DNA from: Rhodoferax sp.
GTDB lineage: Bacteria; Pseudomonadota; Gammaproteobacteria; Burkholderiales; Burkholderiaceae_C
Assembly: GCA_031291305.1 (NCBI GenBank)
Contig: JARLJH010000048.1
Coordinates: 310,001-374,000, forward strand
Length of the DNA stretch: 64,000 bases
Direction: 5' to 3'
Below are positions 58,285 through 64,000 of this stretch, one piece after another (positions within the stretch are counted from its first letter, which is position 1; every line of letters starts with the position of its first letter). The translations under genes were made by a program, and so were the position numbers. The notes below the pieces were generated by a model. That model had not been told where the DNA came from. It saw nothing but the letters and a program-made list of their open reading frames with translations, and did not search any database.

Positions 58285-60219
58285 ATGACCGACAAACGAC
58301 ACTGGAGTTTGGGCGCCAAGCTCTTGATGCTGGGCACGCCGTTCTTGATGCTGGTTTTCCTGGCCACCGCGGCGACGCTTTGGGTGTCGTGGCAGCTGGA
58401 CGGTGGGGCCGCTGCCGTCAATGAAGCTGGCCGCATGCGCATGCAGTCTTACCGGATGTCACTGTCAATCGGCATTGGCGATCTCGGTCAATTACCACAA
58501 CAAACCACTGAGTTCAATCACAGCCTGTCCATCCTCAAATTGGGTGATCCGGAGCGTCCGCTGTTTGTGCCCTGGGACGACGAGACGACCCAGCGCTTTG
58601 CTCTGGTGGAAACAGACTGGGCGCATTACCAATCACGCTGGATTCAGGATGACCCCAAGGTGTTTACCGAGCTGCGCTCAGACACCGTGTCGTTCGCGTC
58701 TGACATTGACCAGTTCGTTCATGCCATCGAAGTGCATATTGAGCATTGGACGGCGATTCTTCATCTGCTACAGATGAGCGTTCTGGGCTCCGTGATTGTG
58801 GGTGCCGTCGCTTTGCTGTACACGGGCTACATGTTTGTGCTCGAACCGGTTGGGCAACTGAAACAGGCCATTCAAAAGGTCCAGGCAGGGAATTTTGAGG
58901 CTCGCGTCGACCGGGTCACCAGCGACGAATTTGGCACGCTGGCCGATGGTTTCAACACCATGGCCGAACAATTACAGTCGATGTACCGAAACCTGGAAAG
59001 CAAGGTGTCTGAAAAAACCTGGCTGTTGCAGGAAAAAACCGAGCGGCTGGAGAGCCTTTACGAAGTGACCGCATTGGTCAACAAGGCGACCTCACTGGAT
59101 GCCCTGGCGCAGGAATTTGTCAAAAGCCTGGCCAAGATTTCCCGTGCAGATGGGGTGGCACTGCGCTGGTGCAGCCAGGGTGGGCAGCGCTATCTGATGC
59201 TGGCGGCACATGGCTTGCCTCCGTCCATGGTGGATGCCGAACAGTGCATTTTTTCAGGTGATTGCTATTGTGGTGCGACCGTGGCGGGTGTTGCTACAAG
59301 CGTGGTGTTGATTCAGGATCTTTCACCCGCGCAGTTGCCGCATTGTGCCAAAGCCGGGTTTGAAACACTGGTGACCCTTCCGGTGTGCCTACACGGTCAG
59401 GTCATGGGTGAAGTGGACTTGTTTTTTCATGCGCGCAGCAACCCCACACCGGCTGAGCGATCACTGTTCGAAGCCCTGTGCAACCATCTCGCTGGTGGCA
59501 TGGAGAACTTGCGTCTTCATGCGCTTGAGCGAGAGGCTGCGGTGTCACAGGAGCGTCATTTGCTGGCGCGCGAACTGCATGACTCCATTGCCCAATCACT
59601 CGCTTTTTTGAAAATACAAGTGCAACTGATGCGTGATGCCGTCAAGACCAGCAACTCTGGCCAGATCGCCAAAGTGCTGGAAGAAATTGATATGGGTGTC
59701 AAGGAAAGCTACGGGGATGTGCGTGAACTGTTGTTGCACTTCAGGACGCGCACCAATGCTGAAGACATCGAACCCGCACTGGCTACGACCTTGCAGAAAT
59801 TCGAACTTCAAAGCGGAATTAAGTCAACGCTATCTATGCAGGGGCAGGGCATGCCGCTAACGCCCGATGTCCAAATTCATGTTCTGCATATTATTCAGGA
59901 GGCCTTGTCCAACGTCCGCAAGCACGCACATGCCTCGCAGGCCTGGCTGGATGTACAGCAACAACCCACCTGGCGTTTTGAGGTGCGCGATGATGGCGTT
60001 GGTTTTAACCCGGACGAAGGTCAGCATGACCAAACCCACGTAGGATTGCGCATCATGACCGAGCGTGCACAACGGATTGGTGCGCACATCGACATTCTCT
60101 CCACACCATCGCGCGGCAGTTCTGTGGTCTTGACCTTGCCGACACCCTCGCATCCAAGCACCAGCAACGCGGCTCGTCTGAATCAGATGTCACCAGCGAC
60201 TGCTGCGCACCTGACCTGA
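58285..60219 (+). CDS. narX: Nitrate/nitrite-type sensor histidine kinase (NarX family)
   Basis: Membrane sensor that phosphorylates the adjacent NarL-type regulator. The 644-residue protein has helix 1 (about residues 12-35), a periplasmic domain starting with a P-box-like NEAGRMRMQSYRM, helix 2 (about 165-190), a HAMP domain (VGQLKQAIQKVQAGNFEARV), a GAF-like region with several cysteines, a HisKA_3 domain with H432 in LARELHDSIAQSLAFLK, and an ATPase domain (RDDGVGFNPDEG). The ATG at 58285 is selected by AGGAGGT 8 nt upstream. The P-box suggests nitrate or nitrite sensing; the exact ligand is inference. Confidence 0.92.
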   Translation: MTDKRHWSLGAKLLMLGTPFLMLVFLATAATLWVSWQLDGGAAAVNEAGRMRMQSYRMSLSIGIGDLGQLPQQTTEFNHSLSILKLGDPERPLFVPWDDETTQRFALVETDWAHYQSRWIQDDPKVFTELRSDTVSFASDIDQFVHAIEVHIEHWTAILHLLQMSVLGSVIVGAVALLYTGYMFVLEPVGQLKQAIQKVQAGNFEARVDRVTSDEFGTLADGFNTMAEQLQSMYRNLESKVSEKTWLLQEKTERLESLYEVTALVNKATSLDALAQEFVKSLAKISRADGVALRWCSQGGQRYLMLAAHGLPPSMVDAEQCIFSGDCYCGATVAGVATSVVLIQDLSPAQLPHCAKAGFETLVTLPVCLHGQVMGEVDLFFHARSNPTPAERSLFEALCNHLAGGMENLRLHALEREAAVSQERHLLARELHDSIAQSLAFLKIQVQLMRDAVKTSNSGQIAKVLEEIDMGVKESYGDVRELLLHFRTRTNAEDIEPALATTLQKFELQSGIKSTLSMQGQGMPLTPDVQIHVLHIIQEALSNVRKHAHASQAWLDVQQQPTWRFEVRDDGVGFNPDEGQHDQTHVGLRIMTERAQRIGAHIDILSTPSRGSSVVLTLPTPSHPSTSNAARLNQMSPATAAHLT

Positions 60220-60226
60220 GAAATTC

Positions 60227-60931
60227 ATGAATTCCACTGAAAAGACCTTGATACGGATATTGGTGGTGGACGACCACACCCTGTTTCGCCGTGGTTTGAC
60301 GGCACTGCTGTCGCGAGACCCGCAGTTGACCGTGGTCGGGGATGCCGCGGATGCCGGGCAAGCACTGCGAAAGGCGCAGGAACTGCAACCTGATGTGATC
60401 TTGCTGGACAACCATTTACCCGGTGTGAATGGTGTCGATGCGGTGCCGTCATTGCGTGAGGTTGCCCCCGAAGCCTGCGTCCTGATGCTCACCATCAGTG
60501 AGGATGAGAGCGATCTGCTGGCTGCATTGCAGGGAGGTGCTTGCGGGTATCTGCTCAAAACCATGGAAGGTGATGAACTCACCGCCGCGGTGCGCCGCGC
60601 TTTTCAGGGGGACACCATCGTGGCACCGGAAATGATGGGCAAACTGGTGGCCGCTTACCGAGGTGTTTCCAGTCCATCTGCACGAGTCGTCGAACTGGAC
60701 GGAGCACCAACCAAGCCAATGCCCGGTGATTCAGCGCTATCGAGCCTTTCCCCAAGGGAACTTGATATTTTGCGTGGTATCGCGCGTGGCGCCAGCAACA
60801 AGGAAATTGCGCGGGAATACGGTATTGTTGAAACCACCGTCAAAATTCATGTGCAGCATATCTTGCGCAAACTGGGCGTGAGTTCACGGGTTCATGCCGC
60901 CGTGCTGGCTACCGAACACGGCGTGTTGTGA
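60227..60931 (+). CDS. narL: Response regulator, NarL/FixJ family
   Basis: DNA-binding partner of the kinase 7 nt upstream. The 234-residue protein has a receiver domain with acidic residues DDH near the start and the phosphorylation site D61 in VILLDNHLPG, close to D59 of E. coli NarL. The C-terminal LuxR-type helix-turn-helix is LSPRELDILRGIARGASNKE, then IAREYGIVETTVKIHVQHIL. Probably controls nitrate or nitrite respiration genes; none of those lie inside the window. Confidence 0.93.
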   Translation: MNSTEKTLIRILVVDDHTLFRRGLTALLSRDPQLTVVGDAADAGQALRKAQELQPDVILLDNHLPGVNGVDAVPSLREVAPEACVLMLTISEDESDLLAALQGGACGYLLKTMEGDELTAAVRRAFQGDTIVAPEMMGKLVAAYRGVSSPSARVVELDGAPTKPMPGDSALSSLSPRELDILRGIARGASNKEIAREYGIVETTVKIHVQHILRKLGVSSRVHAAVLATEHGVL

Positions 60932-60952: not shown

Positions 60953-61432
60953 TCACGCTGCCCGCGCAGGCAAGCCAGGGATCAGTTGAAGGCGCTGAAG
61001 GGGTACGGATTTGGAATCCGTCGCGTCAGCTGCCACCAGATCAGCCAGCGTGACACCATCCAGCACTGCAAGGTAACTTTGCGTGGCGGTTGCCAGCACG
61101 CTCCTGAGATGGCAATGCTGGCTCAGGCGGCATTGATTCAACGCGGGCTCAAAACACTCGACCATGGCGAAATCGGTTTCAGTGGCGCGTACAACATCAC
61201 CCAAACAGATGTCCTGGGCCGACTTGAGCAGCCGCATGCCGCCACCGCGACCCCGCGTCGTTTCCAGCCAGCCCCTGCCTGCCAGATCTTGCACGACCTT
61301 GGTCAAATGGCTGCGCGAGATGCCATGGCTGTCGGCAATCTCGGTGATCGTGACAGGCTGCGCGCGCTGCTGGCTCGCCGCGCAGTACATCAGCACGCGC
61401 AGGGTGTAGTCGGTCCACTGGGTCAGGCGCAT
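60953..61432 (-). CDS. nsrR: NO-responsive Rrf2-family repressor NsrR
   Basis: An iron-sulfur repressor inactivated by nitric oxide. The 159-residue protein starts MRLTQWTDYTLRVLMYCAAS, with a winged helix-turn-helix (ADSHGISRSHLTKVVQDLAG) and the cluster-ligand cysteines C93, C101 and C107 in VECFEPALNQCRLSQHC. The spacing is CX7CX5C; E. coli NsrR has CX4CX5C at 91, 96 and 102. It is divergent from ytfE, and the shared promoter region has two sites resembling the NsrR consensus, so autoregulation and control of ytfE are expected. Confidence 0.93.
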   Translation of the reverse strand: MRLTQWTDYTLRVLMYCAASQQRAQPVTITEIADSHGISRSHLTKVVQDLAGRGWLETTRGRGGGMRLLKSAQDICLGDVVRATETDFAMVECFEPALNQCRLSQHCHLRSVLATATQSYLAVLDGVTLADLVAADATDSKSVPLQRLQLIPGLPARAA

Positions 61433-61453
61433 AGGTTAGAAAGGTGATTTGTA

Positions 61454-61476
61454 AAGATGCATTCAATGCGAATGTT
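61454..61476. promoter_or_regulatory. Predicted NsrR box 1
   Basis: On the minus strand AACATTCGCATTGAATGCATCTT compared with AAGATGCATTTNAAATGCATCTT: the right half (AATGCATCTT) is perfect, the left half partial. It lies 21 nt upstream of the nsrR start, so it is placed for autorepression. Confidence 0.65.
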
Positions 61477-61488
61477 ATCATCTAGAAT

Positions 61489-61511
61489 AACATCCATATT
61501 ACATTCATCTT
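61489..61511. promoter_or_regulatory. Predicted NsrR box 2
   Basis: AACATCCATATTACATTCAT followed by CTT agrees with the NsrR consensus at about 16 of 22 defined positions. It ends 15 nt before the ytfE start. Between this site and box 1 there is an additional perfect inverted repeat, ATGTTAT (61472-61478) and ATAACAT (61487-61493). Confidence 0.65.
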
Positions 61512-61526
61512 TAAAGAAAGTCCACC

Positions 61527-62246
61527 ATGCTCACCCAGTCAGAACTCCATGACACCGTCACCGATTTGCCGCAATTGGACCAAGCCATTGGTCAAATCGC
61601 TGTCAACCTTCCCGGCGCTACAGCGGTGTTTCGAAGACTGAAACTTGATTTTTGCTGTGGCGGGCAAATCAGTCTGAAGCAAGCCGCCACCGACAAAGGG
61701 CTGGATGCTCAAGCCGTCTTGACGGAGCTGATGGCGATACCGCGAGATAACCAGCTGCCGGTTGTCTCTGAGCCGACAACGTTGATTGACCATATCCTGA
61801 CCCGCTACCACGCCGTGCACCGTGGCCAGCTGCCCGAACTCATTCGCATGGCGAGTCGGGTTGAGGCCGTGCACCGTGAAAACCCGCAGGTGCCTGCCGG
61901 TTTGGCAGACCTGCTGGAAGTCATGGAGCAAGAGCTGTTGTCACATATGGACAAGGAAGAAAGCGTTCTCTTTCCGATGTTAAAGGCAGGTGGCAACCCA
62001 TTTATCAATCAACCCATTTCGATGATGCGAGCCGAGCACGTCGATCATGGCGCGATGCTGGAAAGATTGTTAACACTGACCAACGACGCCACACCGCCGG
62101 ACGGCGCTTGCACCACCTGGCGTGCGCTTTACGCTGGCGTCGCTCAGTTTCGTGATGATTTGGTGAATCACATCCATCTGGAAAACAACGTGTTGTTTGC
62201 ACAGTTTGATGCGCCTTGGAATGGGCAGTCGGCACGCCAGTCATGA
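61527..62246 (+). CDS. ytfE: Iron-sulfur cluster repair diiron protein (RIC/YtfE/ScdA)
   Basis: Repairs iron-sulfur clusters damaged by nitric oxide or oxidants. The 239-residue protein has the N-terminal DUF542 segment (LPGATAVFRRLKLDFCCGGQ, with the CC pair) and a hemerythrin-like domain. The diiron ligand pattern is complete: H89, H116, H140 with E144, H171, H215 with E219 (LLSHMDKEESVLFPML and LVNHIHLENNVLF). Preceded by a predicted NsrR box. The stop overlaps the next gene by 4 nt (ATGA). Confidence 0.95.
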   Translation: MLTQSELHDTVTDLPQLDQAIGQIAVNLPGATAVFRRLKLDFCCGGQISLKQAATDKGLDAQAVLTELMAIPRDNQLPVVSEPTTLIDHILTRYHAVHRGQLPELIRMASRVEAVHRENPQVPAGLADLLEVMEQELLSHMDKEESVLFPMLKAGGNPFINQPISMMRAEHVDHGAMLERLLTLTNDATPPDGACTTWRALYAGVAQFRDDLVNHIHLENNVLFAQFDAPWNGQSARQS

Positions 62247-63697
62247 AGCAGTCTCGGGGCTCCAAGGTCATTCCGATCCAGCAGGTGTCTTCTGGTGAGC
62301 GTGCGACTGATGTCGTTTCGTTATATCAGGAGCAGGTCAAGCTCTACCCGCGCGCGGTCTCCGGTTGGTATGCGCGTTGGCGTTGGGTCATGGCGTGGGT
62401 CACACAAGTGGTCTTTTATGGTGTTCCCTGGTTGGTGTGGAATGGCAGGCAGGCCGTTCTTTTTGATTTGGCCGACAGCAAGTTCTTGATTTTTGGATTG
62501 GTGTTGCACCCCCAGGATCTGATCTATTTGGCTGGCTTGCTGGTGTTGGCCGCGCTGACTCTGTTTTTCTTCACCGCCATCGCCGGACGGCTCTGGTGCG
62601 GCTATTCCTGTCCACAAACCGTTTACACCGAGATATTCCTGTGGCTGGAGCGCCAGATCGAGGGTGACCGCTTGGCCCGTATGCGGCTTGACGATGCCAC
62701 CTGGAGCTTGGAAAAAATGGCCCGCAAAGGTGGCAAACAGGTGGCGTGGATTGGCGTGAGTTTGATCACCGGCTTGACGTTTGTTGGCTATTTCACGCCG
62801 ATACGGGAGTTGACGCATGAGCTGGTTCTTATGTCGTTTTCCCCCTGGGAATGGTTCTGGGTGCTTTTTTATGCGTCAGCCACCTATGGCAACGCCGGGT
62901 ATTTGCGGGAGGAATTCTGCAAACACATGTGCCCCTATTCACGCATTCAAAGTGCCTTGACCGATATGGATTCCCTGGTCATTGCCTACGATGTTGAACG
63001 TGGCGAGTCACGCGGATCAAGACCACGCACGGCCGATCCTAAAGTGCTGGGTCTGGGTGATTGCATAGATTGCACTCTGTGTGTTCAGGTTTGCCCAACC
63101 GGTATTGATATTCGTGAAGGACTGCAAAACGAATGCATTGCCTGCGCCGCCTGCATTGATGTCTGTGATGAAGTGATGCGCAAGATGGATTATCCCAAGG
63201 GACTGATCCGCTATTCATCGGGCAAAGGCATGGCTGAGAAGTTGACCCGGGGGCAAATGCTCAAGCGGGTGTGGCGGCCAAGGGTGTGGGCCTACGGCAC
63301 GTTGCTGCTTGTCGGTGTGAGCCTCTTCGTTGGTGGCTTGTCGATGCGCAAAAGTTTTTCCGTGGATGTCATCAAGGACCGCGGCGTGATGGCGCGCGAG
63401 GTTGGCAATGGTGATATCGAGAATGTCTATCGTCTGCAGGTCACCAACGGCACCGAGAAAGTACAAACCTATACCGCCGCTGTGCGTGGTTTGCCCGGGC
63501 TGACTTTGGCGACCCCACCGGACTTGACCGTGCCTGCAACAGGCATTGGGTCACTCACAGTGCGTCTGACACTGTCGGCTGTCGATGCCCAAGGTTTCCG
63601 GGGTAAGACCACCCCGATCTTTTTTGATGTGCACACCAAGACCACCGGCAAGCCATCTGTCATCGAAGAAAAGTCAACTTTTGTGGTACCCCGTTGA
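62243..63697 (+). CDS. CcoG/FixG/RdxA-like membrane ferredoxin protein
   Basis: A 484-residue membrane protein of the CcoG family. In cytochrome cbb3 oxidase clusters CcoG reduces copper for oxidase assembly. Four N-terminal helices include GRLWCGYSCPQTVYTE with C119 and C123. A cysteine-bearing KHMCPYSRIQ precedes two [4Fe-4S] motifs, CIDCTLCVQVCP and CIACAACIDVC (about residues 274-310). A fifth helix (about 355-370) and an IgG-like C-terminal domain follow. Start at the ATGA overlap with ytfE. The unusual context is an NsrR/YtfE operon instead of a cco cluster; a specialised electron donor under NO stress is inferred. Confidence 0.88.
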   Translation: MKQSRGSKVIPIQQVSSGERATDVVSLYQEQVKLYPRAVSGWYARWRWVMAWVTQVVFYGVPWLVWNGRQAVLFDLADSKFLIFGLVLHPQDLIYLAGLLVLAALTLFFFTAIAGRLWCGYSCPQTVYTEIFLWLERQIEGDRLARMRLDDATWSLEKMARKGGKQVAWIGVSLITGLTFVGYFTPIRELTHELVLMSFSPWEWFWVLFYASATYGNAGYLREEFCKHMCPYSRIQSALTDMDSLVIAYDVERGESRGSRPRTADPKVLGLGDCIDCTLCVQVCPTGIDIREGLQNECIACAACIDVCDEVMRKMDYPKGLIRYSSGKGMAEKLTRGQMLKRVWRPRVWAYGTLLLVGVSLFVGGLSMRKSFSVDVIKDRGVMAREVGNGDIENVYRLQVTNGTEKVQTYTAAVRGLPGLTLATPPDLTVPATGIGSLTVRLTLSAVDAQGFRGKTTPIFFDVHTKTTGKPSVIEEKSTFVVPR

Positions 63698-63717
63698 CGC
63701 CAGAAGGATACGCTGTG

Positions 63718-63948
63718 ATGTCAAAGATATTTCCGATACACCCCGCAAACCCTCACCGCATCTGCTGGGGGTGCGATAAATACTGTAGCGTCGATGCCAT
63801 GGCTTGCAGCAATGAGCGCTCACCCCACCCGGCAGAATTGTTTGGCGATGACTGGCTGACTTGGGGCAACCAGCATCTTGAACCGTCGGACAAAAACGAC
63901 CGCGCGCTATTGCAGACATTCAACAACCCTCTCCATCACCAGCCATGA
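63718..63948 (+). CDS. DUF3079 family small cysteine-rich protein
   Basis: A 76-residue cytoplasmic protein with the pattern FPIHPANPHRICWGCDKYC and CSVDAMAC, giving cysteines C16, C19, C23 and C30 (CX2CX3CX6C). I recognise it as DUF3079, a betaproteobacterial family of unknown function. The cysteine set could hold a metal or an iron-sulfur cluster (inference). The ATG at 63718 has AGAAGGA 9 nt upstream. It is 20 nt after the CcoG-like gene and overlaps the next gene by 4 nt (ATGA), so it belongs to the ytfE operon. Confidence 0.85.
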   Translation: MSKIFPIHPANPHRICWGCDKYCSVDAMACSNERSPHPAELFGDDWLTWGNQHLEPSDKNDRALLQTFNNPLHHQP

Positions 63949-64000
63949 CCGACGTTCTCATCTCCCTGACATCCCGCCAAGCTTCCCCTGTACCACCCCC
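63945..64000 (+). CDS. Start of an unidentified gene, truncated by window end
   Basis: An ATG overlapping the DUF3079 stop (ATGA) opens a frame of 18 residues to the window edge, beginning MTDVLISLTSRQASPVPP. Too short to identify. From the context of an NsrR-controlled operon an NnrS-type heme-copper membrane protein would fit, but this is only a guess. Confidence 0.5.
   Translation, partial: MTDVLISLTSRQASPVPP

Follow-up and report, generated by a model that had tools for sequence, protein, structure and literature searches.

A 64,000-nucleotide stretch of the genome of Rhodoferax sp. (GenBank assembly GCA_031291305.1, contig JARLJH010000048.1; G000:C12:310001-374000 in our numbering, and hereafter the window) ends in four genes, ytfE, ccoG2, DUF3079 and nnrS, that run in one direction and are divergent from nsrR, a gene for an Rrf2-family regulator. 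As a whole, these genes and their relatives are best explained by a nitric oxide (NO)-inducible defence operon, a reading that we consider moderately probable. Two of its components, NsrR-type control in response to NO and the affiliation of ccoG2 with a dedicated branch of CcoG genes, are together highly probable from the comparison of sequences. The more specific proposal, that this branch is derepressed through NsrR and would deliver Cu(I) to NnrS or other copper proteins, with DUF3079 as a metal-binding component of NO and denitrification loci, is put forward tentatively and is rather doubtful in its entirety. The new elements are a CcoG branch tied to NsrR and the connection of DUF3079 with NO; the frame in which they appear is the known NsrR regulon.

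The operon and its predicted operators

The window belongs to a 5.0 Mb genome in 69 contigs, and its own locus is designated L003. A first-pass annotation, made from the letters of the window, had proposed an NO-stress operon under NsrR, and this proposal is well supported by the operators and the NO-gene context described below. The gene junctions are also as it had reported them: ytfE and ccoG2 overlap by ATGA, the DUF3079 ATG at 63718 lies 20 nt past the ccoG2 stop (with an alternative in-frame GTG start at 63715), and the nnrS ATG at 63945 overlaps the end of DUF3079 by ATGA. The last gene, which had been left as unknown, is nnrS, a known member of the NsrR regulon, whose product matches PF05940 over its full length (residues 25-395, 347.8 bits, 1.2e-103). 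The features are as follows.

60953..61432, minus strand: nsrR, Rrf2-family regulator, 159 amino acids (PF02082, 8e-37)
61454..61476: operator-like site 1, nsrR-proximal, 3 mismatches to AANATGYATNNNNNATRCATNTT
61489..61511: operator-like site 2, ytfE-proximal, 2 mismatches to AANATGYATNNNNNATRCATNTT, the best in the 64 kb window
61527..62246, plus strand: ytfE (RIC, di-iron iron-sulfur (Fe-S) repair protein), 239 amino acids, with C43 and C44 (NF008221, TIGR03652)
62243..63697, plus strand: ccoG2, CcoG-family membrane protein of the NO-context branch, 484 amino acids (TIGR02745, tree, 12 Cys)
63718..63948, plus strand: DUF3079, small four-Cys protein, 76 amino acids (PF11278, 6.6e-27)
63945..64000, plus strand: start of nnrS, 401 amino acids, running past the window (L003:8945-10150; PF05940)

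Operators were sought with one fixed pattern, AANATGYATNNNNNATRCATNTT, which is the published NsrR motif (PMC1274295) with symmetric AA/TT flanks; since these flanks were not yet part of the pattern in an initial scan, the scan of divergent regions is partly fitted. At up to 3 mismatches the pattern occurs at exactly two places on both strands of the 64 kb, both in the nsrR-ytfE gap, in agreement with the divergent NsrR and the pair of operator-like sites that had been claimed. The operator score of this region has a p of about 0.01 against shuffles (here and below, p-values treat related rows as independent). The best sites of 19 divergent nsrR regions add up to 55 mismatches, compared to 123.7 +/- 4.0 in shuffles, and those of 12 less related regions to 36, compared to 78.0 +/- 3.3. 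Ten of the divergent regions are of the window's kind (L003, L038, L044, L045, L047, L052, L117, L118, L124 and L128). Two sites with at most 3 mismatches, 32-36 bp apart, were present in six of these (L003, L038, L044, L047, L117 and L124), and one such site with a weak second one (5 mismatches), 35-41 bp apart, in three; in L128 the scan gave no site with at most 3 mismatches.

Different palindromes were observed in four other gaps: one of the AAGTGGAATT..AATTCCGCTT type in L144 and L150, about 81 bp before nsrR, at a position similar to that of the operators elsewhere, and another (AAGATTGAAATTTCGTATATCTT) in the divergent nsrR-ccoG gaps of L143 and L166. These sequences perhaps reflect a changed operator specificity.

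A branch of CcoG outside cco operons

CcoG is usually read as a factor for cbb3 oxidase. CcoG2 of the window matches TIGR02745 with 478.2 bits (cut-off 316.7) and carries the Fer4_5, Fer4_18 and FixG_C domains; its closest named matches are from Rhodoferax sp. BLA1 (87%), an uncultured betaproteobacterial metagenome-assembled genome (MAG; 82%) and a Rhodoferax MAG (78%). To place it, we examined 97 ccoG genes, drawn from 19 of 20 best-family-hit loci (together with the genome's other ccoG), 76 of 80 contig-scan loci, the window itself and L069, a locus of the DUF3079 survey described below. This sample is part of 564 relatives and 258 positive genomes and leans towards the window's CcoG. Matches cut at contig ends (L055, L126) and loci in which ccoG was not called (L122, L124, L125) were dropped before counting, as were the duplicates L120 (of L045) and L127 (of L052), and the resulting tree of 95 rows was built by a quick method with support from the SH-like approximate likelihood ratio test (SH-aLRT) only.

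By context, the 95 rows divide into 45 from cco operons, 31 with NsrR, NnrS, YtfE or nor genes as neighbours, 4 with weak and 15 with other settings; the 31 are really 30, as the IscR model (206.3 bits, cut-off 207.55) gives the best match to the 'NsrR' neighbour in L042. The window's gene falls in branch A (31 rows: 22 NO, 3 weak, 6 other; support 95), and branch B holds a further 12 rows (9 NO, 3 other; support 100). Neither branch includes a cco-operon member, and no cco gene was found within 4 genes of ccoG2 or of any branch A or B locus. Context changes on the tree number 3 without the 15 'other' rows and 16 with them. The 31 NO-context ccoG genes have NsrR within 4 genes in 28 cases (27 without L042), the NnrS family in 16, DUF3079 in 5 and intact YtfE in 3. 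The neighbourhood recurs, and the lack of conservation that would have spoken against the first-pass annotation was not observed. Gene order differs among these loci, and Roseateles/Paucibacter-type loci such as L137, for example, have the order DUF2249-nnrS-nsrR-ccoG-second nnrS.

The scan upstream of ccoG is the better operator test, as it covers other regions, of which some are shared with the first scan and the 'other' and cco-operon genes are new. A site with at most 3 mismatches lies upstream of ccoG in 10/31 branch A and 5/12 branch B genes (together 15/43), in 2/7 rows outside A and B, and in 0/45 cco-operon genes. Among the A and B genes classed as 'other', which have no NO gene within 4 genes, such a site was present in 5 of 9, compared to 0/45 in cco operons (Fisher p 4e-5).

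Several further features of these loci were observed. Two Aquitalea loci (L172 and L185) have a ccoG outside A and B with no adjoining cco genes and, some 270 bp upstream of it, an NsrR-type site with 2 mismatches. A gene for an HPP-family membrane protein occurs near the NO-type ccoG of L040, L046, L069, L117 and L145, with TM_HPP and CBS domains in the copies of L117, L046 and L040, and in Roseateles/Paucibacter-type loci another gene follows ccoG-nnrS (L137:12917-13990 and relatives, cluster c54), the L137 copy of which has no Pfam match. The window genome's other ccoG (L037:6894-10370, G000:C50) sits outside a cco operon, preceded by genes whose products are a Rieske protein, a globin of bacterial type and a protein with a weak match to the metallo-beta-lactamase fold.

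We considered that CcoG2 might help, as a second factor induced by NO, to assemble cbb3 or another heme-copper oxidase, replacing or supplementing the resident CcoG upon NO damage. In 31 genomes hand-chosen from branch A and B loci, and not at random, both ccoN and at least two ccoG genes over cut-off were found in 30, the miss in each case being G551, which is 70% complete. The A and B genes are therefore extra copies, and a displaced cbb3-operon gene, tried as an explanation of ccoG2, is rejected by the tree together with the further ccoG in these genomes. The presence of ccoN in 30 of the 31 genomes is compatible with a second assembly factor, as is the location of the window genome's other ccoG and its only ccoN (G000:C44) on different contigs. 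The same is true of the retention of cysteines: 12 of them do not vary among the 45 cco-type rows, and all 12 are kept in the 31 A and 12 B rows, in the CxxxC pairs C119/123 and C226/230 and the cluster motifs C274-284 and C298-308, so that neither branch appears to have lost CcoG chemistry. However, there is no cco gene within 4 genes of any A or B gene, the neighbours are instead nsrR, nnrS, DUF2249, nar and nor genes, and a further ccoG is already at hand in these genomes, and we regard the second-assembly-factor explanation as fairly unlikely. A structural model of CcoG2 (predicted local distance difference test (pLDDT) 74.3) matched only the FixG-related domain 2r39 well; its Fe-S region was in part of low confidence, and the model carries no weight in the argument.

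YtfE accompanies few of the CcoG genes

The window's YtfE is over the cut-offs of two equivalog models (NF008221, 280.8 bits against 254; TIGR03652, 226.6 bits against 204.7). The first-pass annotation had suggested an electron-transfer module for cluster repair or NO reduction, which we took to mean that CcoG2, together with DUF3079, would pass electrons to YtfE. Consistent with such a role, CcoG2 is an Fe-S membrane protein, its gene overlaps ytfE by ATGA, ytfE also adjoins ccoG in L044 and L123, it lies downstream in L122, L124 and L125, and in L128 it starts at the contig end and runs off it. However, among the 31 NO-context loci an intact ytfE was called within 4 genes of ccoG in only 3; in L047 it is five genes away. 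Moreover, ytfE carries internal deletions, different from one another, in two close-relative MAGs (L117, 9590-9994; L119, 9673-9969), and a search at the locus gave no match in two further close relatives (L038 and L118), and all four keep uninterrupted reading frames for ccoG and DUF3079. Cluster repair was accordingly set aside as the primary reading, and electron supply to YtfE is decidedly unlikely. The rarity of ytfE argues only against an obligate YtfE partnership, since DUF3079 is also near few of the genes (5/31).

DUF3079 recurs at NO and denitrification loci

Where DUF3079 is named in the portions of the literature that were covered, it is called of unknown function. The window's protein scores 93.6 bits with PF11278 and has the motif CWGCD-x2-C-x6-C followed by HPxE..G..W, in line with the consensus of a 65-row alignment (P..hPeRiCWGCD.YC......CgNg..RtqHP.E..G.dW). 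This conserved motif is likely a metal site, and a metal-binding role for DUF3079 is, on this pattern of residues, reasonably probable. Two residues shortly after the fourth Cys are missing in the window, L038, L117, L118 and L119. A second DUF3079 gene of the window genome (L072:9529-9753, G000:C67), with no recognised NO gene beside it, has these two residues. No PDB sequence matched DUF3079 up to E 10, and an AlphaFold model from 4 sequences (mean pLDDT 48.2) was not used.

A survey found a match in 60 of 399 genomes of the order; in 59 of these it was over the cut-off, at 63 places, of which 60 genes were counted (G215 was not fetched, and L095 and L110 were not called). An NO or denitrification gene lies within 3 kb of 13 of the 60, spread over five family codes (f27, seven; f21, three; f20, f5 and f1, one each), compared to none at 1031 positions in 40 control regions, which were taken from 40 of these genomes at a distance of about 50-110 kb (13/60 against 0/40, p 7e-4); the comparison is tilted towards DUF3079, as the NO gene set was built from the same loci. 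In f27, norD is within 3 kb in 7/7 cases and nirS also in 5, and other settings include norB-DUF3079-norQ (L069), nnrS-DUF3079 (L063) and narK-DUF3079 (L064 and L065). Pfam backs the norB-, norQ-, norE- and nirS-type genes and the NnrS of L063, and norD has a weak VWA match only.

These results bear on the possibility that this is an ordinary NsrR regulon in which ccoG2 and DUF3079 are passengers without an NO role. Its other members would fit this well, as the main text of PMC1274295 counts ytfE (dnrN), nnrS and narK-like genes among the known or predicted targets of NsrR, gene order varies among relatives, and within 3 kb of most DUF3079 genes (47/60) no NO gene was recognised. Yet ccoG recurs in an NO setting in two branches and several genera, 5 of the 9 copies with no NO gene nearby have an operator-like site of their own, and DUF3079 is found repeatedly, in five families, at nor, nar and nnrS loci, which makes mere carriage of both genes quite improbable.

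NnrS as a candidate client of CcoG2

To our knowledge, NnrS is a core NO-response protein with no settled mechanism. Of NorB, NirK, NosZ and NnrS, the window genome has only NnrS, in a single copy that lies in the operon; searches for NorB (at 1e-10) and NosZ gave no match, and none for NirK exceeded the cut-off. Among the 11 genomes whose ccoG2 identity is 64% or higher, the window's own included, NnrS was found in 10, compared to 20 of 40 hand-picked single-ccoG relatives, 2 of whose 20 matches are weak or partial (Fisher p 0.014; 9/10 and p 0.022 without the window genome). A twelfth such genome, G498, with its match at a contig end, is not part of this count, and the addition of four family genomes, picked partly by context, gives 14/15. 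No PDB sequence matched NnrS up to E 1. NnrS is listed as a cuproprotein in the portion of PMC6769254 covered. By analogy with characterized CcoG, a copper link between CcoG2 and NnrS is possible, although we hold it short of probable.

A proposed mechanism and the points against it

The operon lies within a nitrate-respiration locus, since narX- and narL-type genes come before nsrR, and nnrS is followed downstream by two NarK-family transporter genes (narK1 and narK2, for which the best model is below its cut-off) and then by narG and narH, both over cut-off. The two genes upstream of nsrR are:

58285..60219, plus strand: narX/narQ-type sensor kinase, for which the NarQ and NarX models are best but below cut-off, with a PilJ domain
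60227..60931, plus strand: narL-type response regulator, for which the NarL model is best, at 194.9 against a cut-off of 250 and thus below it

We propose that the divergent NsrR-like repressor would hold ytfE-ccoG2-DUF3079-nnrS down through the two predicted operators, and that NO, formed along with nitrite by the neighbouring nitrate respiration, may react with its Fe-S cluster and release the operon. The ccoG2 gene would then be a dedicated paralogue, from a CcoG branch in NsrR regulons that is distinct from cbb3-encoded CcoG. CcoG2 may have the same chemistry as CcoG, the reduction of Cu(II) to Cu(I) through two [4Fe-4S] clusters, and could provide membrane proteins that depend on copper and are needed under NO with Cu(I) or electrons, above all the heme-copper protein NnrS, and perhaps also heme-copper oxidases. 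DUF3079 might act as a small metal-binding helper of NO and denitrification loci, and YtfE would clear NO-damaged iron in parallel, not as an obligate partner of CcoG2.

Several observations weigh against this interpretation. The regulator scores below the NCBIfam NsrR cut-off (114.5 bits against 182), and its RirA score is higher (137.8 bits, also below the cut-off of 193). No site under 5 mismatches was found in the divergent regions of L128, L143, L144, L150 and L166, and 16 of 31 branch A genes have no site with at most 4 mismatches just upstream of ccoG; for many of these, as for the window's, such a site is not expected because ccoG is operon-internal. The 47 surveyed DUF3079 genes apart from NO genes count here as well. 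For the copper link, G580, a genome with a branch A ccoG, has no NnrS match, which implies that NnrS is not the sole client of CcoG2; nnrS was called within 4 genes in none of the 9 NO-context branch B loci; and NnrS is present in most betaproteobacteria, according to the portion of PMC6769254 covered.

As both NCBIfam scores fall below cut-off, the name NsrR rests on operator and context. The regulator has the Cys triplet for a [4Fe-4S] cluster (C93-x7-C101-x5-C107), a spacing that we take to suit NsrR. An iron or Fe-S sensor of RirA- or IscR-like type, by which the operon would answer iron or Fe-S stress and not NO itself, finds some backing in the higher RirA score and in the near-equal scores of the L137 regulator (113.5 for RirA against 112.0 for NsrR), but is very improbable given that L175, among the best operators (1 mismatch), scores higher for NsrR (134.9) than for RirA (117.4), that the operators fit the NsrR motif given in the main text of PMC1274295, and that nnrS, ytfE, nor and nar, all of them NO genes, lie nearby.

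If the proposal of an NO-induced CcoG branch is true, copper reduction would form a part of the bacterial response to nitrosative stress that has so far gone unrecognised, as the recurrence of this branch with nnrS would tie copper reduction to NO defence. DUF3079 gains a functional lead through its NO link, and annotations as 'cytochrome oxidase accessory protein CcoG' in denitrifiers may mislead.

Comparison with known systems

The composition of the operon had been claimed to be undescribed. This stands insofar as none like it was found in the literature, and no title or abstract describes an NsrR-regulated CcoG branch, in a search that covered mostly papers outside subscription journals, so that an earlier mention is possible; it does not extend to the frame of NsrR, ytfE/dnrN, nnrS and narK, which is known (PMC1274295). 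The main text of that work, by Rodionov et al. (2005), describes the NsrR regulon of beta- and gammaproteobacteria, with an Rrf2 repressor, the operator gATGyAT-N5-ATrCATc, the targets nnrS, dnrN (ytfE) and narK-like genes, and a COG4309 gene with norB. The window shares with it the Rrf2 repressor, the inverted-repeat operator and the nnrS, ytfE and narK-like targets. The same main text has no matches for fixG, rdx, cbb3 or COG0348, and ccoG and DUF3079 are likewise unnamed in it. We presume that COG4309 corresponds to DUF2249, the gene seen in the Roseateles/Paucibacter-type loci.

A denitrification map of Accumulibacter includes ccoG as well as nsrR and nor genes in a single figure; according to the figure legend, ccoG is labelled for cbb3 biogenesis only, and no NsrR binding sites are identified there (PMC6446978). 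The NO cluster of Pseudomonas donghuensis P482, as far as the portion covered describes it, likewise brings together ytfE, nnrS and nor and is induced by tomato exudate, but unlike the window it has norR and dnr as regulators, and its ccoG is elsewhere (BV82_1198) and is down with tomato exudate (-1.8) (PMC10256816).

The closest biochemical reference is the CcoG of ccoNOQP-ccoGHIS in Rhodobacter capsulatus, which sections of one report describe as carrying two [4Fe-4S] clusters and reducing Cu(II) specifically (PMC7558416). As far as sections of PMC7558416 and PMC13038864 describe that protein, it has TIGR02745, Fer4_5, the dicluster and FixG_C in common with CcoG2. In contrast with the R. 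capsulatus gene, ccoG2 lies outside a cco operon and under NsrR-type operators, belongs to a separate branch, and shares its operon with ytfE, DUF3079 and nnrS.

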